DNA of 64,000 nt from Brevibacillus laterosporus LMG 15441. GTDB taxonomy: Bacteria; Bacillota; Bacilli; Brevibacillales; Brevibacillaceae. The DNA lies in contig NZ_CP007806.1 in assembly GCF_000219535.2 (NCBI RefSeq), forward strand, positions 2,018,501 to 2,082,500, given 5' to 3'. Shown here piece after piece: positions 3,676 through 52,830 of the stretch. A program made the translations under genes and the position numbers. A model generated the notes under the pieces. The model was given only the letters and a program-made list of their open reading frames with translations. It had not been told where the DNA came from and made no database searches. How positions within the stretch are numbered: position 1 is the first letter of the stretch; the number at the start of each line of letters is the position of its first letter.

Positions 3676-4486
3676 AATTGTGGAGCAAAAAAAAGGAGAA
3701 GTGGCGATCCTGCGTCAAGGAACAAGTCTTCAACAGATGCTAACGGAGATGAAAGCACTGCCAGCTACTCGCGGTTTTGTCAACGCTCTTACCACAAGCC
3801 CTCGGAAGGTAAGCTTAATTGCTGAGGTAAAAAAAGCTTCTCCGTCAAAAGGCATCATTCGTGCTAATTTTGACCCTGTCGCTATTGCTGGGTCTTATCA
3901 GGAAGCTGGTGTGGATGCGATTTCAGTTTTAACGGACGAAACGTTTTTTCAAGGTGAACTAAGGTATCTACAGATGATCAAAGAATTGGTTCCCCAGCCG
4001 TTGTTACGCAAAGATTTTACTATTGATGAATATCAGATTGCACAATCAAGAGTGAGCGGAGCGGATGCTATTTTATTGATTGCAGCCATTCTGGATTCTG
4101 AACAAATCAAGCACTTTTATCAAATGGCAGTAGAGATCGGACTAGATGTGCTAATAGAGGTTCATGATCAAACGGAATTAGAGCAGGTGATGTCGGCAGT
4201 AGAGCCTATGCTGCTCGGCATTAATAATCGAGATTTGCGAACCTTCACCACGAATCTAGATACTTCCGTAGATCTCTTGAAGCTGATTCCTAGCGGCATT
4301 CCTGTCGTAAGTGAGAGTGGGTTAGCGACAGCGGAAGATGTTCATTTAGTCGGGATGGCGGGAGCGCGCTCCATTTTAGTAGGTGAGCAGTTCATGCGTC
4401 AAGAGGACGTAGTTCAAGCTGTTCGTGAGCTAATGCAAGATCAACATATGAAGCCTCAGGTGATTTCACGAGGTGACACAATATGA
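3665..4486 (+). CDS. trpC: Indole-3-glycerol phosphate synthase
   Basis: TrpC closes the indole ring, converting CdRP to indole-3-glycerol phosphate with loss of CO2. This 273-aa (beta/alpha)8-barrel protein contains LIAEVKKASPSKG with the catalytic lysine, LRKDFTIDEYQI, LLGINNRDL and the phosphate-binding SESGL and GEQFMR segments. It overlaps both neighbours (11 nt with trpD, 4 nt with trpF), so it lies inside the translationally coupled trp series. The C-terminal extension of about 15 residues after the barrel is slightly long and otherwise ordinary. Confidence 0.97.
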   Translation: MLRKIVEQKKGEVAILRQGTSLQQMLTEMKALPATRGFVNALTTSPRKVSLIAEVKKASPSKGIIRANFDPVAIAGSYQEAGVDAISVLTDETFFQGELRYLQMIKELVPQPLLRKDFTIDEYQIAQSRVSGADAILLIAAILDSEQIKHFYQMAVEIGLDVLIEVHDQTELEQVMSAVEPMLLGINNRDLRTFTTNLDTSVDLLKLIPSGIPVVSESGLATAEDVHLVGMAGARSILVGEQFMRQEDVVQAVRELMQDQHMKPQVISRGDTI

Positions 4487-5184
4487 CCGCCTTAAAAATT
4501 TGTGGGATAAAAGATGCGAATACACTGGTCTTATTGCAGAAGCTTAGCGTGGAATATGCAGGTTTGGTGTTTGCCGAAAGTAAGCGCCGGGTGACAGTAG
4601 AGCAGGCTAGGACTCTAGTAGCAGAGGCTAAGACTTCAGCGGATGCAGAGGTTTTAGAAAATATGAACAGACCTTTCCCGCGTCTAGTAGGAGTTTTTGT
4701 GAATCCAGATGTATCTGAGCTTGATCGCATAGTGAACCAGGTCCCTCTGGACGTGATCCAATTGCATGGCCAAGAAACGCCAGAATTTTGTCAAATGGCC
4801 CAAAAACGCTTTGGCAAGCCTGTATGGAAAGCGATTGGCATCGGGACAGGGAGTGACTCCATTATAGAAAAGCTTGCCTCCTACAAAAATAGTGTGCAAG
4901 CCTACTTATTTGACACGCATGATCCAAAACAAGCGGGAGGTACGGGTAAAAAATTTGCCTGGGAACACATTCCCGATCTGCAACGAATGGTAGCTCCCTT
5001 ACAAGCAATCATTGCTGGTGGTATTTCAATAGAGAATGTAGAGACTTTACTTAGCAAATATGCACCAGCCTTAATTGATCTTTCCAGCGGTGTAGAGACC
5101 AATGGTGAAAAGGATGCTCACAAAATAACAATTTTAGCGGAAAGGGTGAAGCAGCATGGCACAAGCTACGAATGTACGAGATGA
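4483..5184 (+). CDS. trpF: Phosphoribosylanthranilate isomerase
   Basis: TrpF performs the Amadori rearrangement of phosphoribosylanthranilate to CdRP. The 233-aa protein starts [15 protein letters not shown], the classical KICGI motif with the catalytic cysteine. It shows the barrel segments [44 protein letters not shown] and [14 protein letters not shown]. The start overlaps trpC by ATGA, and the 3' end overlaps trpB by 29 nt. A short insertion of about 20 residues (around residues 48-68, [18 protein letters not shown]) makes it a little longer than the B. subtilis enzyme. Confidence 0.96.
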
Positions 5185-6370
5185 TTCTGTCCTACGATCA
5201 GGTCGATTTGGTGAATATGGGGGCAGATTTGTTCCTGAAACCTTAATGAAGGCATTAATCGAATTGGAGAAAAGCTTAGTGGAAGCGTTGGAGGATGAGA
5301 CCTTTCATGCAGAATTAAATCAATTTCTTCGCTTTTATTCGGGAAGACCGACTCCCTTTTATCATGCTGAACGTCTGAGTGAACATCTGGGAGGGGCACA
5401 CATTTACTTAAAACGAGAAGATTTAAATCACACAGGCGCTCACAAATTAAATAATGCCTTGGCACAAGCGTTACTGGCTAAACGAATGGGGAAGCAAGCT
5501 ATTATTGCCGAAACAGGAGCTGGCCAGCATGGGGTAGCGAGTGCAACTGTAGCCGCGCGTCTTGGACTTTCTTGCAAGGTTTTCATGGGAGAAGAGGATA
5601 TTAAACGCCAGGAGTTAAATGTTTTTCGGATGAAGCTTTTAGGAGCAGAGGTTATTCCAGTATCATCGGGAACAGCCACGTTAAAGGATGCTACCAATGA
5701 AGCAATTCGTTATTGGGTGAGTAATGTAGAAGAAACCTACTATGTAATTGGTTCGGCGATGGGACCTCATCCATATCCCTATATGGTGCGGGAGTTCCAA
5801 AAAATCATTGGAACAGAGACACGAGCCCAATCTCTGGAGCAGCTTGGGCGCTTACCTGATGAACTTATCGCATGCGTCGGAGGAGGGAGCAATGCCATTG
5901 GCTTTTTCTATCCATTTGTGGGGGATCAGGTGAGATTGACTGCAGTAGAAGCAGCAGGAGAAGGTGTGGATACAGACAAGCATGCGGCAACATTAACAAA
6001 AGGACGTCCAGGTATTATTCATGGCTCCCTAACATATCTGTTGCAGGATGATGATGGACAGGTGCAGGAAGCTCATTCCATTTCGGCTGGACTTGATTAC
6101 CCAGGTGTTGGTCCCGAGCATTCTTATTTAAAAGACCGCGGCAGAGTGGAGTATGTGGCAATTACTGATCAGGAAGCTTTAGAGGCTTGCCAATTGCTTA
6201 CGAAATTAGAAGGGATACTACCTGCCTTGGAAAGCTCACATGCTATAGCGGAGGTCATAAAGCGCGCTCCGCGGATGAATTCCGATCAAATCATCGCTGT
6301 ATGCCTTTCTGGACGCGGGGATAAAGACGTTCATACCTTACAAAACCATCTGAACAAGGAGGAGAATTAA
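5156..6370 (+). CDS. trpB: Tryptophan synthase beta chain
   Basis: TrpB condenses indole with serine using PLP. The 404-aa protein has the PLP lysine (K97) in [14 protein letters not shown], the ETGAGQHG catalytic glutamate loop, the [13 protein letters not shown] phosphate-binding loop, and the C-terminal CLSGRGDKD. It is the TrpB1 type, of typical length. The ATG at 5156 lies inside trpF (29-nt overlap) and trpA starts 2 nt after the stop, consistent with coupled production of the alpha2beta2 complex. Confidence 0.98.
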
Positions 6371-40711: not shown

Positions 40712-41194
40712 GTGTGGAAACGCATCTTGATCATTTCAGCATGTGCGCTTGTTGTGCTAGGCGCATCCCTGTATCAGCTACTTTCCAGCTTATTGTCTGA
40801 GCGTCACACGTTAGAAGCAGAGGCCAGAGCATTAGTAGCAGAAAAAACAAACATTGCTGAGATCGATACGATAGAAGAATATCGAGGACGGGAAGCCTAT
40901 ATTGTAGTTACAGGCAAAAACAAGGTAGGAACTCCAGTGGTGGCTTGGTTTAGTAAAGAACACGTCACATTTGACTTGCTGGAAAAAGCTTTTCCTCGCA
41001 CAAAAGTTAAACAAGTAGCGGAAGCCTCTTATCCAGGAGCCCAGATCGAACGCATTGTACCTGGCTTAGAGGGTGATAAGAAGCTATGGGAAGTCACTTT
41101 AGTGGACAAGCAAAATCGTTACAACTACGTATATTATGATTTTTTGACTGGTCAAAAAATACGAGCATATACGTTAAATATTCCAAAATCATAA
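40712..41194 (+). CDS. ypmB: YpmB-like protein (DUF5590)
   Basis: A 160-aa single-pass membrane protein: anchor at about residues 4-24 (ILIISACALVVLGASLYQLL), then an extracellular PepSY/YpmB-like domain of two similar halves (EYRGREAYIVVTGKNKVG and EVTLVDKQNRYNYVYYD). The length and position before aspB match YpmB of B. subtilis, whose function is not defined. Start is GTG at 40712 after AGGAGAATC. A terminator follows the stop by only 4 nt. Confidence 0.8.
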   Translation: MWKRILIISACALVVLGASLYQLLSSLLSERHTLEAEARALVAEKTNIAEIDTIEEYRGREAYIVVTGKNKVGTPVVAWFSKEHVTFDLLEKAFPRTKVKQVAEASYPGAQIERIVPGLEGDKKLWEVTLVDKQNRYNYVYYDFLTGQKIRAYTLNIPKS

Positions 41195-41226: not shown

Positions 41227-41393
41227 ACTTTATCACCGTTTTTCTCTTCTTGAAATGGAATTGGTCGTAGTTCCAGCAAATACATAGCAAAAAGGTACCA
41301 TAAAAATGCTATACTTGGTTTCGTAACTGATAATAAAGCCGTTCTGAACGGAACAAATAAAAGTTTTTATGAGCAAAGAAAGGGGAGTTATTG

Positions 41394-41924
41394 GTGAAAT
41401 TACGTAAAGTACCTATGTTACTGTCACTGCTTGCCGCACTTACGCTCCTCTTTGGTGGCTGGTTTTTATACCAAAAGATGCAGATAGAAAGTCCATTACG
41501 AGAAAAGGCACAACAACTAACGTCGGCTACCTTGGTCGATTTTAAGATGAATAAAGAGCGTGTTGATATGAAGCTACAAGTCACAAATCCAGATAAATTT
41601 GTAGATGAATACCCGGAGCTGTTAAAAACACTTCAAGCCTATGCACGCGGGAAGGCTTTTGATATAATGCTTACCAATCAAGCTGATTCACTCAAGCCGG
41701 TCTGGAATGAGGGGCTATTTGGACTAACAGAGGCCATCGAAGGCAAGGCTTATAGTCAAATTCCTGCCATTTTAGCTCAAATGAAAGATCGTTATAAGCT
41801 TGATGAAGCATATGGACGCATTGACGATGCAAATGTTTATATTTTTTTGAAACGAGGAACTGATGAATACTACCAAATTATTCCTCGTAAACAGTCAACA
41901 AGCGAGGTGGTAAACCTTGGGTAA
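41394..41924 (+). CDS. Membrane-anchored partner of the short FtsH-like protease
   Basis: A 176-aa protein: short basic N-terminus, one membrane span (about residues 7-26, VPMLLSLLAALTLLFGGWFL), then about 145 residues outside with mixed alpha/beta character (VDFKMNKERVDMKLQVTNPD). No family was recognised. It overlaps the next gene, a short FtsH-like protease, by 8 nt, so the two are made together. FtsH proteins normally carry their own ectodomain between two membrane spans; the partner's lack of one suggests this protein may supply it. Start GTG 41394 with AGGGGAG 6 nt upstream; TTG 41391 is an alternative. Confidence 0.7.
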   Translation: MKLRKVPMLLSLLAALTLLFGGWFLYQKMQIESPLREKAQQLTSATLVDFKMNKERVDMKLQVTNPDKFVDEYPELLKTLQAYARGKAFDIMLTNQADSLKPVWNEGLFGLTEAIEGKAYSQIPAILAQMKDRYKLDEAYGRIDDANVYIFLKRGTDEYYQIIPRKQSTSEVVNLG

Positions 41925-43413
41925 AGAAATATTATTTGGTGTAGTACCAGCGGTTATCGTATTCTTGCTGTTTTTGGGCATTAATATTGGACCATTTTTG
42001 CTGTTTGGGGCCATTTTAGCAGGTACATACTTGTTGTTTTCCAAACAAGGTGGCATGCAGATTGGTTCCGGTAAAAGCAAAAGTGGCAGTCAGGTTGTGA
42101 AGAAATCCAATATTACCTTTGCCGATATCGGAGGACAGCAACGTGCAAAAAAAGAAATCAAGGAAGCCCTAGATTTCTTATTGCATAAGGATGCGATCGC
42201 TCAATACGGAATTCGTCCCTTAAAGGGTGTACTGTTAACGGGGCCTCCTGGAACAGGTAAAACGTTGATGGCAAAGGCCGCCGCCAATTATACGAACTCT
42301 GCATTTGTTGCAGCATCTGGCTCACAATTTGTAGAGATGTACGTAGGGGTGGGAGCTCAGCGTATTCGTGAATTGTTTAAGGAAGTTCGTTCTTTAGCAG
42401 AGAAAAACAATCAAGATAGCGGGATTATTTTTATTGACGAAATTGACGTTATTGGTGGAAAACGCGATGGTCAGCAGCAAAGAGAATATGACCAAACCTT
42501 AAACCAACTGTTAACCGAAATGGATGGTATGACAACAAGTGAAAAACCGCGCATACTCATTATGGCGGCAACGAACCGAAAAGATATGCTTGATGCAGCA
42601 TTATTGCGTCCAGGACGGTTTGATCGCCACATTCAGGTCGATTTGCCAGATAAACCAGCCCGCGAACAAATATTAACCATACACACAGAAAATAAACCAC
42701 TTGCACTTGACATAAAATTGGAAAAAGTGGCGCAAGAAACATTTGGGTTCTCCGGTGCCCAATTAGAAAGTGTGTGCAATGAGGCTGCTATTTATGCAAT
42801 GCGTGACAAATCAGATAAAGTGATGCAAAGCCATTTTTCGCTTGCTATCGATAAGGTAATGATGGGGGAAATGACCGATCGTGAAGCACCTCAGACTGAG
42901 AAGGAGCGGGTAGCGATTCATGAATTGGGACATGCTATTGTTAGCGAACGAGTACGTCCTGGCTCCGTGTCACAGGTAACATTAACCCCTCGCGGACAAG
43001 CATTAGGTTATGTACGTCAAAACCCAATGGACGATCATTATCTTTATACCCGTGACTATATGGAAGGGCAGATTATGGTTTGCCTTGCGGGTGCAGTGTC
43101 AGAAGAAATTTATTATGGCGGACGTAGCACGGGGTCTAAAAATGATTTTGAGCAAGCCCTGCAAATGGCGCAAGAAATTGTTCAAAGTGGTATGTCTAGA
43201 TTAGGGATTATTAATATGCAATATGCGGATAAAAATGCAATCCATCAAGAAGTACATTCTATCATTGAGGGATTGCTTGAAAAAACACGGTCTTTGCTCG
43301 GCGAACATGATTCAGTTTATCGCTATAGTCTACAGGTGTTATTGGAGGCTGAAGTGTTAAGTGGTGATCAATTCCGCGAAAAGCTGGCCGAAATAGATAT
43401 GGTAGTAGCGTAA
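41917..43413 (+). CDS. Short FtsH-like ATP-dependent zinc metalloprotease
   Basis: A 498-aa membrane AAA+ protease. Two hydrophobic segments at about residues 5-22 and 24-42 are separated by almost no loop, so the usual FtsH ectodomain is missing. The AAA module is complete: Walker A GPPGTGKT (109-116), pore loop FVEMYVGVGA (138-147), Walker B FIDEID (172-177), and the second region of homology TNRKDMLDAALLRPGRFDR. The protease has zinc motif HELGH (335-339) and third ligand D410 in STGSKNDFEQA. Canonical FtsH is about 600-640 aa, so this is a second, shortened paralogue rather than the housekeeping one. It overlaps its partner gene by 8 nt and is followed by a terminator. Confidence 0.88.
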   Translation: MGKEILFGVVPAVIVFLLFLGINIGPFLLFGAILAGTYLLFSKQGGMQIGSGKSKSGSQVVKKSNITFADIGGQQRAKKEIKEALDFLLHKDAIAQYGIRPLKGVLLTGPPGTGKTLMAKAAANYTNSAFVAASGSQFVEMYVGVGAQRIRELFKEVRSLAEKNNQDSGIIFIDEIDVIGGKRDGQQQREYDQTLNQLLTEMDGMTTSEKPRILIMAATNRKDMLDAALLRPGRFDRHIQVDLPDKPAREQILTIHTENKPLALDIKLEKVAQETFGFSGAQLESVCNEAAIYAMRDKSDKVMQSHFSLAIDKVMMGEMTDREAPQTEKERVAIHELGHAIVSERVRPGSVSQVTLTPRGQALGYVRQNPMDDHYLYTRDYMEGQIMVCLAGAVSEEIYYGGRSTGSKNDFEQALQMAQEIVQSGMSRLGIINMQYADKNAIHQEVHSIIEGLLEKTRSLLGEHDSVYRYSLQVLLEAEVLSGDQFREKLAEIDMVVA

Positions 43414-43415
43414 TG

Positions 43416-43449
43416 ACCGATGGATTCGTCTATCGGTTTTTCTTTTTGT
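43416..43449 (+). terminator. Terminator after the FtsH-like gene
   Basis: ACCGAT (43416-43421) pairs with ATCGGT (43432-43437), followed by TTTTCTTTTTG. The stem starts 3 nt after the stop codon. Confidence 0.7.
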
Positions 43450-43526: not shown

Positions 43527-44648
43527 ATGGCTAAACAAAACTTACAAAAGCAGAATATTAAAAACAGACAAAGGAAATTGAAAAAGAAAAACAAAGCTCT
43601 TCAAGAGTTAGATGCACTGGAAACAGCCTTAGTTAATAATTGGATTGATGATAGTTCCGATTTTTACTTCCAAGAGGAGGAGACCTCTATACCTCACTTG
43701 GCAAATGACGTGAAGACATTGCTACAGGAATCTTCTCAAATGGAAATCCGTAAGCCTAACCGCTCACTATCCAAAAAGCGAAAGCAACGAAAAGGTCGTC
43801 GAAAGCCAAAACGTTTATCTTCTAAGCGAAGCCCAACATATTCGGAACTTAAATTAGTGTCATCAAAAATTCCACAAAATCAGCAGCACTTCATTACAAA
43901 ATGGAATGATGAAGAAAAAAGTAATGACGAGGATTCACCTTATTCTGGCGTACCATCCTATTATGAGGACAGCGATTGCAAGCTTGTTGATGTAAAACCA
44001 AATATAGACGATCAAATTTTGTCTCAACTTCCGCATCAAGTTGCGCAATTTATGTTTACAATGCCAGAGGTTTTCGGGTTGACAGGGCATCATCTGCAAC
44101 CGTTGTCCGTATTGACTCGACATTTGCAAGATTTTTTAAACGCTGAGAAAAAAATAGAAGCTGAGCATGCAGTATCAAATCATTCAGATACTTCTGTTGT
44201 GGAAAATCAAATCGTTAACGATCCTCCAAGTGATCTTTCAAGTGGTTCTCCAAGCGATTCTCTAAGTGATCTTTTAAATGATCCTTCAAATGATCCTTCA
44301 AATGATCCTCCAAGTGTTCCATCTGAGGTGTCATTGGATCATCCACCGAATCAGTTGGAAATCATAGATCTACAACAAGTCGGAAAAGAAAACTTTACGT
44401 TACAACAAGGTCGCGTAAGAACAAGCTTGACAATCAATTTAACAGAACCCTTCCAAGAGAAGGATTATGTATTTATGGCAACGACAGATATACCTTTTTG
44501 TTTTGTCGTTGTAGAGAAGAAAGAATCGGATAAAGTGACTATTGAAATCTTACGTCAAATTGCTAATCGTGAGGTATCTGGACAGGTGGAATGGATTGCA
44601 ATTGGTACAAAAAGGGTAGAGGAGCAGGTAGTTGAAATAGTGCAGTAG
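43527..44648 (+). CDS. Repeat-containing, highly charged protein; possible spore-layer component
   Basis: A 373-aa protein that was not recognised. Residues 1-110 are very basic (KNRQRKLKKKNKALQELD, KKRKQRKGRRKPKR). A middle part (about 150-225) is ordinary and contains LPHQVAQFMFTMPEV. Residues 232-263 are eight tetrapeptide repeats of the DPSN/DPPS type. The last 90 residues form a beta-rich domain ending GQVEWIAIGTKRVEEQVVE. No signal peptide. The combination of a basic region, short repeats and a compact C-terminal domain, together with a SigE/SigK-like -10, is compatible with a spore coat or crust protein, but this is inference. Ribosome binding site AAGGAAAGG. Confidence 0.7.
   Translation: MAKQNLQKQNIKNRQRKLKKKNKALQELDALETALVNNWIDDSSDFYFQEEETSIPHLANDVKTLLQESSQMEIRKPNRSLSKKRKQRKGRRKPKRLSSKRSPTYSELKLVSSKIPQNQQHFITKWNDEEKSNDEDSPYSGVPSYYEDSDCKLVDVKPNIDDQILSQLPHQVAQFMFTMPEVFGLTGHHLQPLSVLTRHLQDFLNAEKKIEAEHAVSNHSDTSVVENQIVNDPPSDLSSGSPSDSLSDLLNDPSNDPSNDPPSVPSEVSLDHPPNQLEIIDLQQVGKENFTLQQGRVRTSLTINLTEPFQEKDYVFMATTDIPFCFVVVEKKESDKVTIEILRQIANREVSGQVEWIAIGTKRVEEQVVEIVQ
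44220..44315 (+). repeat. Eight tandem 12-bp units inside the 43527 gene
   Basis: Eight consecutive 12-bp units of the form GATCCTNCAAAT/AGT (starts 44220, 44232, 44244, 44256, 44268, 44280, 44292, 44304). Units at 44280 and 44292 are identical. They encode DPPS, DLSS, GSPS, DSLS, DLLN, DPSN, DPSN, DPPS. The array keeps the frame whatever the copy number. Confidence 0.9.
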
Positions 44649-44779: not shown

Positions 44780-45667
44780 TTAGCGCTTTGAAAATATGAC
44801 CACAATGTTTTTCTGGTTCTTTCCGGTAGGCACAAGATATGTTTGCTTTAATGTGTTGTTACTCTGAATGGTAAAGGTATAGTTCATTTGAGAGACATGC
44901 TTTTTCAACGCAGGGGCTTGTTCCTTTTGCTCTAGGCAAGCTTGTTCATTGAGGTCAGCATTGTCATGTTTTGTTTCGATTTGTTTTTCCGATAGCATTT
45001 TTTCTATTTCTTCTTTGTGAATGTTACTTACCATACTCCCAAGCAATTGTTGATAAAGGGCGGGATCATGTATGGTGAGGAGGGGATGAGTTGCTTCATT
45101 TGCGATCTTTTCGGGGGTTTGTAACTTCTTCTGGGAAATGCCCCCGTACATATAACAGGCTAAGCTGTTCATTTCATGAGATTGTTTCCATTCGTTGTAC
45201 AGCTCGGATGCCATTTTTTCCATGAAAGCAAGAAAGAGAGTGGCTTGTTTGGCAGCAAGACCGATAAGTATTTTTCGGGGATAAAGATAGGTTCGATCTC
45301 GCCCAGGACTTTTATCCACATTTTTTACCTTAAGCTGTCCAGATGGGAGCAGGTAGAGATTTTTCTTATCCGGATCACCTTGTTCAGAACTAATTTTTTT
45401 AAAGATGAAAAGTAGCTGTATTAGCTTCAGCAATAATTCTGTTGTTAAGATCTTCGTTTGTAGATATTCACGCGAATCCATTCCGGTTATTTGTTTCATT
45501 ACAATGTTATTGTTGTCGCAAATACTATTCATTAATTCGAATACAGCCCCTTGTTTCCCTGTTTCGATTGGTTGTATTGGGGGCGGATTTACTACTTCCA
45601 CATCTTGATTTTCTTTTGGGATTACCCAAATGAGAGCTAAGCATTTAAGAAAATTGGTATACTCCAA
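44780..45667 (-). CDS. Uncharacterised protein on the minus strand
   Basis: A 295-aa protein that was not recognised. It starts with a TTG (45667) after AAGGAGGGGAC. The N-terminus (FLKCLALIWVIP) is mildly hydrophobic but not a clear signal. The middle has YLLPSGQLKVKN and a helical stretch IGLAAKQATLFLAFMEKMA; the end has beta-rich TFTIQSNNTLKQTYLVPTG. It is convergent with the 43527 gene and divergent from aspB, and has no counterpart in the B. subtilis order. Base composition looks like its neighbours. It may be a spore or surface protein by location, but there is no direct evidence. Confidence 0.7.
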   Translation of the reverse strand: MEYTNFLKCLALIWVIPKENQDVEVVNPPPIQPIETGKQGAVFELMNSICDNNNIVMKQITGMDSREYLQTKILTTELLLKLIQLLFIFKKISSEQGDPDKKNLYLLPSGQLKVKNVDKSPGRDRTYLYPRKILIGLAAKQATLFLAFMEKMASELYNEWKQSHEMNSLACYMYGGISQKKLQTPEKIANEATHPLLTIHDPALYQQLLGSMVSNIHKEEIEKMLSEKQIETKHDNADLNEQACLEQKEQAPALKKHVSQMNYTFTIQSNNTLKQTYLVPTGKNQKNIVVIFSKR

Positions 45668-48806: not shown

Positions 48807-49763
48807 ATGAAAAAGAGATATTTATTTTTAGCATTAATCATCCTATCCATGTGCTCCTTATTTATTGGAGTTAAAAACATTACTCCACTTGACATTCTAA
48901 ATTTTAATAATGAGCAGGTTGAAATTTTCTTAATTAGCCGTGTTCCACGATTAGTTAGCATTATTGTGGCTGGTATTAGCCTTAGTATCTGTGGCTTAAT
49001 CATGCAGCAGATCACCCGTAATAAATTCGTATCTCCTACTACTGCTGGAACGATGGACTGCGCTCGATTAGGAGTGCTGGTATCACTCATGCTATTTACT
49101 ACGGAGAGTCCGATTGTAAAGATGATTGTCGCATTTATTTTTGCCTTAGGTGGCACCTTTATTTTTATGAAAATCCTTAGAAAAATAAAGTTCAAAGACA
49201 ATATCTTTATTCCATTGGTAGGTATTATGTTTGGTAATATTATCAGTTCTATAAGCACTTTCTTTGCTTATAAATATGACCTGATACAAAATATATCCTC
49301 ATGGTTACAAGGAGACTTCTCCATGATCATGAAGGGAAGATATGAGCTTTTGTATATTAGTATCCCGCTTGTCATTATCGCCTTTCTTTATGCGAATAAA
49401 TTCACGGTCGCAGGAATGGGAGAAGAATTCGCGGTTAATCTAGGACTCAACTATCAGCGTGTGATCAATATCGGATTAATCATCGTTGCTATGATTTCCT
49501 CTCTGGTATTGCTCACAGTCGGAATGATTCCATTCCTTGGTTTAATTATTCCGAACATCGTTTCCATTTATCGTGGGGATAATCTACGGAACAGTCTACC
49601 GCATACAGCCTTACTCGGAGCCGTATTTGTCCTAGCATGTGATATATTAGGGCGTATCGTAATTTTTCCTTATGAGCTCTCGATTGGACTTATGGTCGGA
49701 GTTATCGGCAGTGGAATCTTCCTGTATTTACTCATGAGGAGAAATGCATATGCAACAATGTAG
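48807..49763 (+). CDS. Iron-siderophore ABC transporter permease, YclN-like
   Basis: A 318-aa FecCD-family permease with about nine membrane spans. Diagnostic blocks are RVPRLVSIIVAGISLSICG, GLIMQQITRNKFVSPTTAG (usually NPLADP in cobalamin/ferrichrome relatives) and the cytoplasmic coupling region NLGLNYQRVINIGL. The order permease-permease-ATPase-binding protein and the sequence flavour match yclNOPQ, the petrobactin-type transporter of B. subtilis. ACGGGGGGAAC precedes the ATG. The substrate is inferred, not shown. Confidence 0.88.
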   Translation: MKKRYLFLALIILSMCSLFIGVKNITPLDILNFNNEQVEIFLISRVPRLVSIIVAGISLSICGLIMQQITRNKFVSPTTAGTMDCARLGVLVSLMLFTTESPIVKMIVAFIFALGGTFIFMKILRKIKFKDNIFIPLVGIMFGNIISSISTFFAYKYDLIQNISSWLQGDFSMIMKGRYELLYISIPLVIIAFLYANKFTVAGMGEEFAVNLGLNYQRVINIGLIIVAMISSLVLLTVGMIPFLGLIIPNIVSIYRGDNLRNSLPHTALLGAVFVLACDILGRIVIFPYELSIGLMVGVIGSGIFLYLLMRRNAYATM

Positions 49764-50706
49764 AAGAATGTTGGGCATCCTTGCGATGATCGCACTCGTC
49801 TTGATCGGATTATTTATTTTCTACAAGATAAATGCGAATAATTGGGATTATGTTCTTCCCAAACGCAGTAAAAATGTACTTGCTATCTTATTAACTGGGG
49901 GAGCGATTGCGTTCTCATCTGTTGTATTTCAAACGATAACGAATAACCGAATCTTAACTCCTAGCGTCATCGGATTAGATTCGCTGTATATGTTTATTCA
50001 AACATTGGTCATTTTCTTGTTTGGTTCTATGCACATCACAATCACGAATAACAACGTTAACTTTGTGCTTTCAGTAGGGCTCATGATTGTATTCTCAAGC
50101 ATTTTATTTAAAACGTTGTTTAGAGGTGAGGGCAGGAATATCTTTTTCTTGCTATTAGTGGGGATTATCTTTGGAACCTTTTTCTCCAGTCTATCCTCGT
50201 TTATGCAAATGTTAATTGATCCAAACGAATTTCAGGTCATTCAGGATAAAATGTTTGCCAGCTTTAACAGTGTAAACACAGATATCCTGATGCTATCTGT
50301 GATTGGAATAGCCTTAGCTTGTGGTTATATTTTTAAACAGTTAAAATTCCTCGATGTCTTGTCTTTGGGAAGAGATCAAGCGATTAATTTAGGAATTAAC
50401 TACGAGCGAGTTGTGAAAAGATTACTGATCGTAATTGCGGTGCTAGTATCTATTTCAACCGCATTAGTTGGTCCGATTACCTTTTTAGGATTATTGGTAG
50501 CCAATCTGGCACGGGAATTCTTAAAGGTGTATCAGCACAAGTATTTGCTTATTGGTTCTATGCTGATTAGTACCATTGCTTTAGTTGGCGGACAGTTCAT
50601 CGTGGAGCGGGTTTTTCAATTCTCGACACCGCTCAGTGTCATCATCAATTTTATTGGTGGTATGTACTTCTTATATCTGCTGTTAAAGGAGAATAAAGCA
50701 TGGTAG
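49750..50706 (+). CDS. Iron-siderophore ABC transporter permease, YclO-like
   Basis: The second FecCD permease, 318 aa, about nine spans, with AILLTGGAIAFSSVVFQTITNNRILTPS split over the first spans and the coupling region AINLGINYERVVKRLL. It would form a heterodimer with the preceding permease. The ATG at 49750 has GAGGAG 8 nt upstream, while the ATG at 49744 is only 2 nt from it. It overlaps the first permease by 14 nt and the ATPase gene by 7 nt. Confidence 0.88.
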   Translation: MQQCRRMLGILAMIALVLIGLFIFYKINANNWDYVLPKRSKNVLAILLTGGAIAFSSVVFQTITNNRILTPSVIGLDSLYMFIQTLVIFLFGSMHITITNNNVNFVLSVGLMIVFSSILFKTLFRGEGRNIFFLLLVGIIFGTFFSSLSSFMQMLIDPNEFQVIQDKMFASFNSVNTDILMLSVIGIALACGYIFKQLKFLDVLSLGRDQAINLGINYERVVKRLLIVIAVLVSISTALVGPITFLGLLVANLAREFLKVYQHKYLLIGSMLISTIALVGGQFIVERVFQFSTPLSVIINFIGGMYFLYLLLKENKAW

Positions 50707-51458
50707 AAGTTAAAAACGTCACAAAATTCTATGGAAATAAGCCTGTTGTTGAAAATATATCGGTGAAGATAAAAAAGGGAAGCATCACCTCCTTTATCGG
50801 TCCCAACGGTGCTGGAAAAAGTACATTGCTGTCCATGATCAGCCGCTTACTCAAGAAAGATGAAGGCGAGGTTTATATTGAAGGACAGGAAATAAGTAAA
50901 TGGAACAGCAATGATTTGGCCAAGAAGATTTCGATTCTAAAACAGTCCAACCATATTAATATTCGTTTAACCGTGAAAGAATTGATAAGTTTCGGTCGTT
51001 TTCCTTATTCACAGGGTAATTTATCACCGGAAGATTGGAAATATGTCGAAGAAGCGATTGCTTACATGGAACTGGAAGATATGCAGGATAAATATTTAGA
51101 CCAATTAAGCGGTGGACAAAGACAACGAGCTTACATTGCAATGGTTATCGCGCAAAACACGGATTATATCCTGTTGGATGAGCCACTTAATAACTTGGAT
51201 ATGAAGCACTCGGTGCAAATCATGAAAACCCTGCGACGGTTAGTAGCTGAATTAGGCAAGACGATCATCATTGTTATTCATGATATTAACTTTGCATCCT
51301 GTTACTCCGATTATATTGTTGCATTAAAAGACGGTAAAATCGTCAAAGAGGGCTCGACCCAAGAAATCATTAACCCTAGGGTCTTACAGGACTTGTATGA
51401 GATGGATTTCAATATCCAAAACATCGAGGGTAATGACATTTGTGTCTATTTCGCTTAA
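50700..51458 (+). CDS. Iron-siderophore ABC transporter ATPase, YclP-like
   Basis: A 252-aa ABC ATPase with Walker A GPNGAGKSTLLSM, Q-loop LKQSNHI, signature LSGGQRQRAYIAM, Walker B DYILLDEPLNNLDM and switch VIHDINFAS. It powers uptake by the two preceding permeases. Start at 50700 overlaps the permease gene. The substrate-binding protein gene does not follow directly: 403 nt of unusual sequence intervene. Confidence 0.93.
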   Translation: MVEVKNVTKFYGNKPVVENISVKIKKGSITSFIGPNGAGKSTLLSMISRLLKKDEGEVYIEGQEISKWNSNDLAKKISILKQSNHINIRLTVKELISFGRFPYSQGNLSPEDWKYVEEAIAYMELEDMQDKYLDQLSGGQRQRAYIAMVIAQNTDYILLDEPLNNLDMKHSVQIMKTLRRLVAELGKTIIIVIHDINFASCYSDYIVALKDGKIVKEGSTQEIINPRVLQDLYEMDFNIQNIEGNDICVYFA

Positions 51459-51576
51459 CAAAGAATTTCGCTGAAAACCAATTTACAAATCATACTGAGA
51501 ACGAAAACGGATGTAGTTGGATTCATGAAACAAAGAACCGAAAAAGGATGGCAAAACTGGCCTGCCGATGTGGGAA

Positions 51577-51748
51577 ACCTTCTTTCCTCCCTTTCTTAAC
51601 GTACGGAAGAGACCTACGGGTTGATTCCAAGCTGGGTAATACCCAATGACAAGCGTCCTGTCGTCACTCAAGCAAGGGGGATCACGGACCGCGTAGCAAT
51701 GTAAGGACGTGAATTGACATAGGACACTTGGAGGAAGAGAAAGAAGGT
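51577..51748 (+). other. Unexplained structured region between transporter ATPase and binding-protein genes
   Basis: The 403-nt gap contains a GC-richer stretch unlike the AT-rich spacers nearby. ACCTTCTTTC (51577-51586) pairs with GAAAGAAGGT (51739-51748) over 10 bp, closing a 170-nt domain. Inside, CCAAG (51627-51631) pairs with CTTGG (51727-51731), CGTCC (51654-51658) with GGACG (51705-51709), and TGGGT-AAT-ACCCA (51633-51645) is a local hairpin. No convincing ORF with a ribosome binding site covers it. A second hairpin, GGAAGA (51794-51799) with TCTTCC (51805-51810), lies before the next gene. Candidates: leader RNA, processing element, or a decayed insertion. Confidence 0.45.
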
Positions 51749-51861
51749 ACAAAGCAGGCACAGATAAGTTTTACCTTTGTTTCATTAGCTGAAGGAAGAG
51801 CAGATCTTCCTAGCATATGATCTGGTCTACATCTTGTTTCAAAAAATTTATAGAGGTGAGA

Positions 51862-52830
51862 ATGTTGAAGAAATTAGCAATGGTATTTGCTACATTTATG
51901 TTAGCATTGGTTACGGCGGCTTGCGGGTCAAATAATGCTACAGATAAAACATCTGGTGCTCAACCAGAAGCAGCAAAACAAGCAGCTCCTGTAGAAATTA
52001 CTGTAAAACACGAACTAGGTGAGACAGTAGTTAAGAAAAATCCACAAAAAGTCATTGTGTTTGACTTTGGTTCCCTTGACACTATGGATGCATTGGGCGT
52101 AGAACCAGCTGGTCTGCCACAAAAAAGCCTACCTAGCTATCTAGATAAATACAAAGATGAAAAATATATCAATGTTGGTGGTTTGAAAGAGCCTGACTTT
52201 GAAAAAATTCATGAAGCAAAACCTGATTTAATCATCATTGCTGGTCGTCAAGCCGATAAGTATGAAGAATTTAAAAAGATCGCTCCAACAATCTACATGG
52301 ATGTTGATGATAAGAAATACATGGAATCCTTCACTACTAAAGTAAAAACATTGGCTCAAATTTTTGATAAAGAAGCAAAAGCTGATGAAATGCTAGCTAA
52401 AATTGAAAAAGAAATTAAAGACCTAAATGAAAAAACAAAAGCTGACGAGAAAAAAGCTTTAGTTATTCTTGCTAACGATGGCAAAGTAAGTGCTTATGGT
52501 TCTACTTCTCGCTTTGGTATTGTTCATGATGTGTTTGGCTTCAAACAAGCAGATGATAAAATCGGCGCATCTACACATGGACAAAGTGTTTCTTTCGAGT
52601 ACATCTTGGAGAAAAACCCTGATTACATTTTCGTAGTTGACCGTACTGCGGCTATTAAAAAAGGTGAATCTTCTGCGAAACAAGTAATAGAAAATGAAAT
52701 TGTGAAGAAAACGAATGCAGTTAAAAACAATAAAGTCATTTACCTAGATCCAGGATACTGGTACCTATCTGGTGGCGGATTAGAATCTGTATCTGAAATG
52801 GTAAAAGAAACAGCTGCTGTTTATAAATAA
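51862..52830 (+). CDS. Iron-siderophore binding lipoprotein, YclQ-like
   Basis: A 322-aa FeuA/YclQ-type binding protein. The signal peptide ends in the lipobox LVTAAC (Cys at about residue 20), so it is anchored to the outer membrane face. The body shows ITVKHELGETVVKKNPQKVIVF split over the first strands, DTMDALGVEPAGLPQ, PDLIIIAGRQADKYEEF, and the C-terminal lobe NPDYIFVVDRTAAIKKG and DPGYWYLSGGGLES. It captures the ferric siderophore for the permeases upstream. Start ATG 51862 after AGAGGTGAG; TTG 51865 is the alternative. Confidence 0.92.
   Translation: MLKKLAMVFATFMLALVTAACGSNNATDKTSGAQPEAAKQAAPVEITVKHELGETVVKKNPQKVIVFDFGSLDTMDALGVEPAGLPQKSLPSYLDKYKDEKYINVGGLKEPDFEKIHEAKPDLIIIAGRQADKYEEFKKIAPTIYMDVDDKKYMESFTTKVKTLAQIFDKEAKADEMLAKIEKEIKDLNEKTKADEKKALVILANDGKVSAYGSTSRFGIVHDVFGFKQADDKIGASTHGQSVSFEYILEKNPDYIFVVDRTAAIKKGESSAKQVIENEIVKKTNAVKNNKVIYLDPGYWYLSGGGLESVSEMVKETAAVYK

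Follow-up and report, generated by a model that had tools for sequence, protein, structure and literature searches.

An ectodomain-less FtsH-type protease and its single-span neighbour in Brevibacillus laterosporus: a probable two-chain membrane protease

Here we describe a pair of overlapping genes found at positions 41394-43413, on the forward strand, of a 64,000-nt stretch (the window) of contig NZ_CP007806.1 of Brevibacillus laterosporus LMG 15441. The upstream gene, which opens with a GTG codon and is referred to here as the partner, encodes a membrane protein with one span and a domain that would lie outside the cytoplasm, and the downstream gene, which opens with a TTG codon, encodes a zinc metalloprotease of the FtsH type that lacks the ectodomain of classical FtsH. 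The features of the pair and of its borders are collected in Table 1. An earlier note on this DNA had already drawn attention to the two genes, and re-reading of the open reading frames (ORFs) and their translations confirmed its coordinates, its frames and the overlap. The overlap has the same length in 98 of 105 locus rows of relatives, a count in which some genomes appear more than once and in which the start was taken by a script as the nearest start codon. The overlap is thus conserved among relatives, and through it partner and protease may be translationally coupled.

Table 1. Position of the partner and protease genes, of their domains and of candidate flanking elements in the window
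Feature	Position	Strand	Basis
Possible extended -10 element TGnTATACT, weak	41307..41315	+	Upstream of partner, read by eye
Partner gene: membrane protein of 176 aa with one span and a predicted extracytoplasmic alpha/beta domain	41394..41924	+	ORF, translation, AlphaFold, homologues upstream of protease in relatives
Partner membrane helix and juxtamembrane extension, residues 6-40, with conserved L-F-G-G, Tyr26 and Pro34	41409..41513	+	AlphaFold, conservation
Partner outer domain, about residues 41-164, b-b-a-b then a-a-b-b-b	41514..41885	+	AlphaFold
AAA+ zinc metalloprotease, FtsH/M41 superfamily, 498 aa, ectodomain-less	41917..43413	+	ORF, motif, family and structure matches
Overlap of partner end and protease start, 8 nt	41917..41924	+	DNA reading, loci of relatives
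Transmembrane helical hairpin, protease residues 2-43, with a 4-residue turn where FtsH has its ectodomain	41920..42045	+	AlphaFold model, row comparison
AAA ATPase domain, residues 105-242	42229..42642	+	PF00004, 4.5e-42
Peptidase M41 domain, residues 326-488	42892..43380	+	PF01434, 4.1e-32
HELGH	42919-42933	+	In M41 domain
Asp410 (distal Asp)	43144-43146	+	In M41 domain
Terminator-like stem-loop after protease	43415..43438	+	10-pair stem, T-rich tail

Besides the AAA and Peptidase_M41 domains the protease has a Pfam match to AAA_lid_3, and its sequence holds the catalytic motifs GPPGTGKT, FIDEID, LRPGRFDR and HELGH and the distal Asp of NDFEQA. It has the features by which the FtsH/M41 AAA+ superfamily is recognized, namely an AAA domain with Walker A, Walker B and the arginines of the second region of homology (SRH), and an M41 domain with HExxH and a distal Asp. 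With the NCBIfam FtsH equivalog TIGR01241 it scores 448.3 bits and does not reach the cut-off of 600; among solved structures, VCP/Cdc48-type ATPases gave the lowest E-values, and the matches spanning both domains were to FtsH (2ce7, 8vw9 and 7tdo). In the AlphaFold model (26 rows; mean predicted local distance difference test (pLDDT) 76, predicted template-modelling score (pTM) 0.49) helices at residues 2-20 and 25-43 are joined directly by the short turn and are followed by the AAA core, as expected from the earlier note, which had described a protease with all motifs and two spans joined without an ectodomain. In canonical FtsH of the same phylum (10 rows) the AAA core starts at residues 157-173 and the spans lie 68-81 residues apart, whereas in the complete ectodomain-less rows the core starts 62-111 residues into the open frame and the hydrophobic part is one hairpin-sized stretch. 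Five rows from two genomes, G402 (L141, L204, L179) and G407 (L142, L178), are excepted, and in these the core starts later because the open frames extend upstream. For L111, L153, L154 and L208, four rows that come from three genomes, a single strong span was all that the scan detected.

FtsH is usually presented as a single housekeeping gene of a bacterium (PMC9020784), with a fixed layout. The genome studied here has two Peptidase_M41 matches, a canonical FtsH in a 663-aa frame and the present protease; the nearest named relative of the genome, B. laterosporus L063, has a protease that is 99 % identical to it. In a maximum-likelihood tree of 53 cores, the root of which was untested, 37 ectodomain-less rows lie on one side of a branch with support 100/100 and length 1.17, and the opposite side is made up of 9 rows of canonical FtsH and 7 other relatives of FtsH, so that the protease does not branch with the canonical FtsH clade of the phylum. 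The ectodomain-less rows form one subgroup of 17 rows from the class of the window and one of 20 rows from other classes, possibly of Clostridia (supports 88/34, which is weak, and 98/89), a division by class that is expected from vertical descent. On the basis of these sequences the ectodomain-less proteases appear to be one old clade within the phylum.

FtsH-like proteins of other architecture were also seen in the survey. Genome G055 has a third FtsH-like protein of 536 aa (L120, 6371-7981, reverse strand) that, read by eye, apparently has two close spans and a short loop and lies outside the ectodomain-less clade on a long branch. Metagenome-assembled genomes of Obscuribacterales (L100, L101, L102, L104, L105) encode FtsH-like proteins in open frames of about 900-960 aa with four or five predicted spans, and the three that were put in the tree have a very long branch.

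The occurrence of the two genes was followed in two samples. In 59 genomes of relatives, with the protease called at more than 500 bits, the protease is present in 49; the partner was found by sequence search in 48 of these, in the 49th, G055, a partner ORF immediately precedes the protease, and in all 49 the partner adjoins the protease on its upstream side. In each of the remaining 10 genomes only one FtsH match reaches E ≤ 1e-60, and there is no partner match. In 398 genomes of the phylum the protease profile (E ≤ 1e-150) matched 276 and the partner profile (E ≤ 0.001) matched 267; both matched, anywhere in the genome, in 259, the protease alone in 17, the partner alone in 8 and neither in 114. 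A rescan of 27 genomes at a lower threshold gave at least 573 bits for complete ectodomain-less proteases and at most 438 bits for canonical FtsH. Where the DNA of the locus was read, the partner directly precedes the protease in all of the 19 usable loci in a first set (20 regions had been requested, one of which was unusable) and in 79 of 80 of a second. All 17 genomes with the protease alone have a one-span ORF of about 156-226 codons at the protease start. Partner profile A1 missed these 17 genome-wide; at the loci, where there are few ORFs, 11 match it weakly (E 5.5e-15 to 0.0043). Profiles built for 13 of the 17 in three sets (L143, L144, L153 and L154 lie outside them) gave 80.4, 61.4, 87.1, 27.6, 82.0 and 97.4 % against the Bacilli and other-class profiles. 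In this sample no protease was seen without a partner-like gene: of the 276 carriers, 259 have one by profile, anywhere in the genome, and 17 as a divergent ORF at the protease start, six of these being of uncertain homology. The earlier note had named protease homologues regularly occurring without the partner as the observation that would speak against it; instead, every carrier has either a partner-profile match or a one-span ORF of similar size, and the linked unit of an ectodomain-less protease and a one-span outer-domain protein that it had described is borne out in both samples.

Most genomes with a partner match alone have a simple explanation. In four (G139, G325, G373, G428) the protease beside the partner is cut by a contig end, in G253 it is broken over two frames beside the partner, and in G262 and G302 the matches were rejected as weak chance matches to other proteins. 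A fusion of partner and protease was also considered, since in G407 and G402 open frames of 676 and 819 aa, respectively, had the look of fusions. The partner, however, lies in a different frame of that stretch, and none of the loci read held a natural fusion. Both genes share one frame in G304 and G094 (L126, L127), where they run one after the other and a stop codon separates them.

The pair is kept in different surroundings in different parts of the phylum. In the class of the window, the same amidohydrolase cluster lies on the upstream side in all 13 loci listed; 10 of these also have a YpmB cluster close by on that side, and in most an aspB or asnS cluster lies downstream. In the other classes a RecA cluster is downstream in 15 of 20 loci, mostly with RimO- and PgsA-like genes upstream and CinA-like genes in between; gene names in both lists come from reading translations rather than from a family search. 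That the pair is kept in two unrelated conserved neighbourhoods is evidence of functional coupling.

The loci yielded 214 partner-protease pairs, of which 190 are non-identical, and 13 loci, including divergent ones and that of G233, gave none. The Walker A Lys, the Walker B Asp-Glu, the SRH arginines, the H, E and H of HExGH and the distal Asp are invariant in 190 of 190 pairs. With the catalytic residues intact in all pairs, an active protease is the natural reading of the sequences. In the partner, mean conservation over the same pairs is 0.50 for residues 5-34, 0.33 for residues 35-97 and 0.42 for residues 98-164. The membrane helix is thus the best conserved part on average, which would be expected if it contacts the protease within the membrane. 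Direct coupling analysis (DCA) of the 190 pairs, with an effective number of 105 and limited to the first 160 protease columns, placed 17 helix-hairpin pairs among the top 200 inter-protein couplings where 9.9 were expected, a weak excess. The real top scores exceed those of three shuffled pairings, a difference that phylogeny alone can produce.

The AlphaFold model of the partner (34 rows) has a mean pLDDT of 83 and a long helix that leads into the outer domain, and no family in Pfam or NCBIfam reaches its cut-off with this protein, in agreement with the prior description of one span and an outer domain of no recognised family. The domain would be outside the cell and the positively charged N terminus inside. 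Foldseek returned 1072 matches at E ≤ 10 and none at E ≤ 0.001. The best fold match, Z 6.5, is the C-terminal part of pantothenate synthetases, and comparison of the first half with ring-building-motif and ferredoxin-like domains gave Z 5.6 for EscJ and 4.9 for the FliF MS-ring; values of Z below 8 may reflect a mere common arrangement, and all of these matches, together with the C-terminal domains of CDF proteins (Z about 5), were taken in this way. We also considered that the partner could be the missing ectodomain itself. However, three partner profiles aligned with the FtsH ectodomain by hhalign gave 4.3, 1.2 and 0.4 %, where the unrelated control YpmB gave 0.2, 0.4 and 0.1 % with the partner profiles and 2.1 % with the ectodomain. 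No similarity was thus detected, although a common origin beyond recognition by sequence is possible. The literal 'split FtsH' of the earlier note is not supported, and gene fission is unlikely because the partner has no detectable homology to the FtsH ectodomain. Loss of the ectodomain beside an unrelated partner seems the better reading than an FtsH split in two.

Taken together, we think it probable that the two genes encode one active, membrane-embedded AAA+ zinc protease of two chains, the outer domain of which is supplied in trans. As the clade lacks the ectodomain and its near-obligate neighbour has one helix and an outer domain, an outer domain in trans is the simplest reading. In the mechanism that we infer, in which the hexamer, the topology, the contact between the chains, the substrates and what the partner does are all predicted, the downstream gene product would be an ectodomain-less FtsH paralogue. 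By homology it would assemble into a hexamer, draw substrates at the cytoplasmic face through a pore driven by ATP and cleave them at the zinc site of the M41 domain. The helical hairpin would stand in for the two spans and ectodomain of FtsH. The partner would add in trans a third membrane helix and, outside the cytoplasm, its alpha/beta domain; this domain is most likely placed on the outer face of the hexamer and held there through helix-helix contacts, and may select or gate membrane-protein substrates. Such a two-chain protease would work beside canonical FtsH and not as its replacement.

Several observations weigh against this proposal. The DNA was read for the 19 and 80 loci mentioned above, a minority of the 259 genomes with both profiles. 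The 17 divergent partners were accepted partly from position and architecture, and six of them (L151, L152, L156-L159) have no profile match even at the locus, although they are likely to be homologous to the partner family. Genome G271 has a real partner without a protease (L175, 1489-2055, reverse strand), followed by two genes read as those of ribosomal proteins L21 and L27. In G233 (L281), the sole separated case seen, a gene for a putative Fe-S oxidoreductase and other ORFs lie between the partner at 136-690 and the protease at 4089-5585. The most conserved single residues of the partner are in the outer domain and not in the helix (Tyr149, 0.93; Arg165, 0.91; Asp144, 0.90), where Tyr73 and Glu113 are also well conserved (0.87), and the strongest DCA couplings fall outside the helix-hairpin pairs.

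Other explanations of the pair have to be considered. The partner may be a regulator, acting from the membrane as a sensor or inhibitor and turning the protease on or off with the state of the envelope, without any substrate recognition of its own. The near-obligate linkage fits this equally well, a fast-diverging outer domain could serve as a ligand-sensing surface, and a precedent is found in SppA and SppI of B. subtilis, a membrane protease with an inhibitory membrane partner (PMC7568657). However, the absence of the ectodomain throughout the clade is better explained by structural replacement, which a pure regulator would not need, and we regard a regulator as unlikely. Contact between the two proteins is putative, and the helix-hairpin excess in the DCA is weak, which would allow that the genes are merely co-regulated and that the partner acts elsewhere in the envelope without touching the protease; near-perfect co-occurrence and the retention of the unit in two unrelated neighbourhoods make this rather improbable. 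A degenerate local FtsH duplicate behind a chance upstream ORF would be in keeping with the TIGR01241 score below the cut-off, but with catalytic residues intact in every pair and a clade spread across the phylum this explanation is refuted and can be set aside almost entirely.

A further possibility concerns the process that a two-chain protease would serve. SpoIVA was found in 336 of the 398 genomes (330 over the family cut-off and 6 under it), and it is present in 269 of the 276 carriers of the protease and in 67 of the 122 non-carriers, with a Fisher odds ratio of 31.5 in a comparison that takes no account of phylogeny and lacks a control gene of comparable spread. SigG was checked in the seven carriers that do not have SpoIVA, and five have it over the cut-off; G338 is only 61 % complete, and G162, rated 100 % complete, has neither protein over the cut-off and yet keeps the pair. 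Across the genomes sampled the pair accompanies endospore formation, but sporulation in general does not require it, nor is the pair strictly confined to spore formers. It could be that the protease is dedicated to endospore formation and clears membrane proteins during engulfment or forespore maturation, and the distribution of SpoIVA and of SigG speaks for this. However, the role in sporulation that the earlier note had suggested, while compatible with these counts, is unproven because 67 SpoIVA genomes lack the pair and G162 retains it; the neighbourhoods, moreover, look like those of housekeeping genes, and a dedicated sporulation protease seems to us a doubtful, if still arguable, reading.

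The sequences bordering the pair were also inspected. The ORF upstream at 40712-41194 had been named ypmB (TseB), and this identity stands with Pfam (TseB, 43.7 bits, cut-off 26.5), though the NCBIfam TseB equivalog, at 54.8 bits, stays below its cut-off of 200. The -10-like element upstream of the partner is common to three of four aligned Brevibacillus sequences, two of which are near-identical: it is present in B. laterosporus L063 (the near-identical one) and B. daliensis L064 and absent from B. dissolubilis L065. An automated promoter scan gave no site at this element, and the number of sites it reported equals that in shuffles. Terminator-like sites number 2 in the region and 2.7 in shuffles, so there is no excess.

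Downstream, the candidate spore protein that had been placed beside the pair does adjoin it, as an ORF at 43527-44648 with a WIAG-tail domain (NF012201, 82.7 bits, cut-off 33), but it lies outside the unit, as the pair occurs in other genera without it in the flanks that were searched. This ORF contains a 12-base tandem repeat array at 44220-44320. WIAG-tail-like ORFs are found downstream of the pair, at variable distance, in many Brevibacillus loci, and no match was found in the Aneurinibacillus and Ammoniphilus flanks searched. The next ORF, 44780-45667 on the reverse strand (295 aa), matches no Pfam or NCBIfam family over its cut-off and, the window itself aside, has matches only in B. laterosporus L063 (67 %) and B. 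daliensis L064 (39 %) among the loci searched. Further along the window, translations at 48807-52830 read as an apparent iron-siderophore ATP-binding cassette (ABC) transporter set of two permeases, an ATPase and a binding protein, which is flanked by asnS and a DnaD-like gene; relatives have cluster c14, read as DnaD-like, directly after asnS in six loci (L106, L109-L111, L115, L118). Locus L069 (NZ_CP064048.1), titled Anoxybacillus sediminis PCH 117, has a pair and neighbourhood close to those of Brevibacillus thermoruber L071, and its organism name is doubtful.

Among known systems, SppA of B. subtilis presumably belongs to a protease family unrelated to the present one. It resembles the present pair in that a membrane protease has a cognate membrane partner, but SppI is described as an inhibitor (PMC7568657). 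Canonical FtsH (TIGR01241; for example that of T. maritima or E. coli) likewise combines AAA and M41 domains with catalytic motifs and two N-terminal membrane helices, but the present protease lacks the ectodomain, scores 448 bits where 600 are required, falls in a separate clade and has a partner gene. According to PMC12067869, the ectodomain of FtsH is on the outer face and contacts HflK, and E. coli FtsH with HflK/HflC is, like the present pair, a membrane AAA protease with single-span partners that bear large outer domains. However, HflKC are SPFH proteins that cage a complete FtsH (PMC12067869), whereas the present partner is a small alpha/beta protein with no SPFH among its Pfam matches and is encoded with a protease that has no ectodomain. 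The mitochondrial i-AAA and m-AAA proteases are FtsH relatives, some with an altered N-terminal membrane architecture, and the i-AAA protease has a single transmembrane helix and a matrix N-domain (PMC12067869, PMC9020784); the present protease, in contrast, has a two-helix hairpin and its presumed outer domain on a separate chain.

No description of an ectodomain-less FtsH with a partner gene in Bacillota was found in the open-licence literature searched, and an earlier one elsewhere is possible. In 276 of 398 genomes of the phylum there is an ectodomain-less FtsH relative with intact catalytic residues, and its partner is almost never found apart from it; the pair is a widespread variant of the FtsH-type protease with a probable trans-acting partner. 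More tentatively, and with somewhat less than even confidence, we suggest that it may be a further FtsH-type architecture, ancient in Bacillota: an obligate two-chain machine that would receive its recognition or gating domain in trans from a non-homologous single-span subunit and would serve, mainly in endospore formers, as a second, specialised degrader of membrane proteins beside housekeeping FtsH. A hypothesis of function is gained for a protein family without a Pfam or NCBIfam model over its cut-off. If the complex is real, FtsH would have an outer domain that can be exchanged as a module, the pair would offer a natural two-part system for probing the function of this domain, and one likely player in the quality control of the spore-former envelope could be named. 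Our analysis suggests that many spore formers have an overlooked two-part machine for protein degradation.

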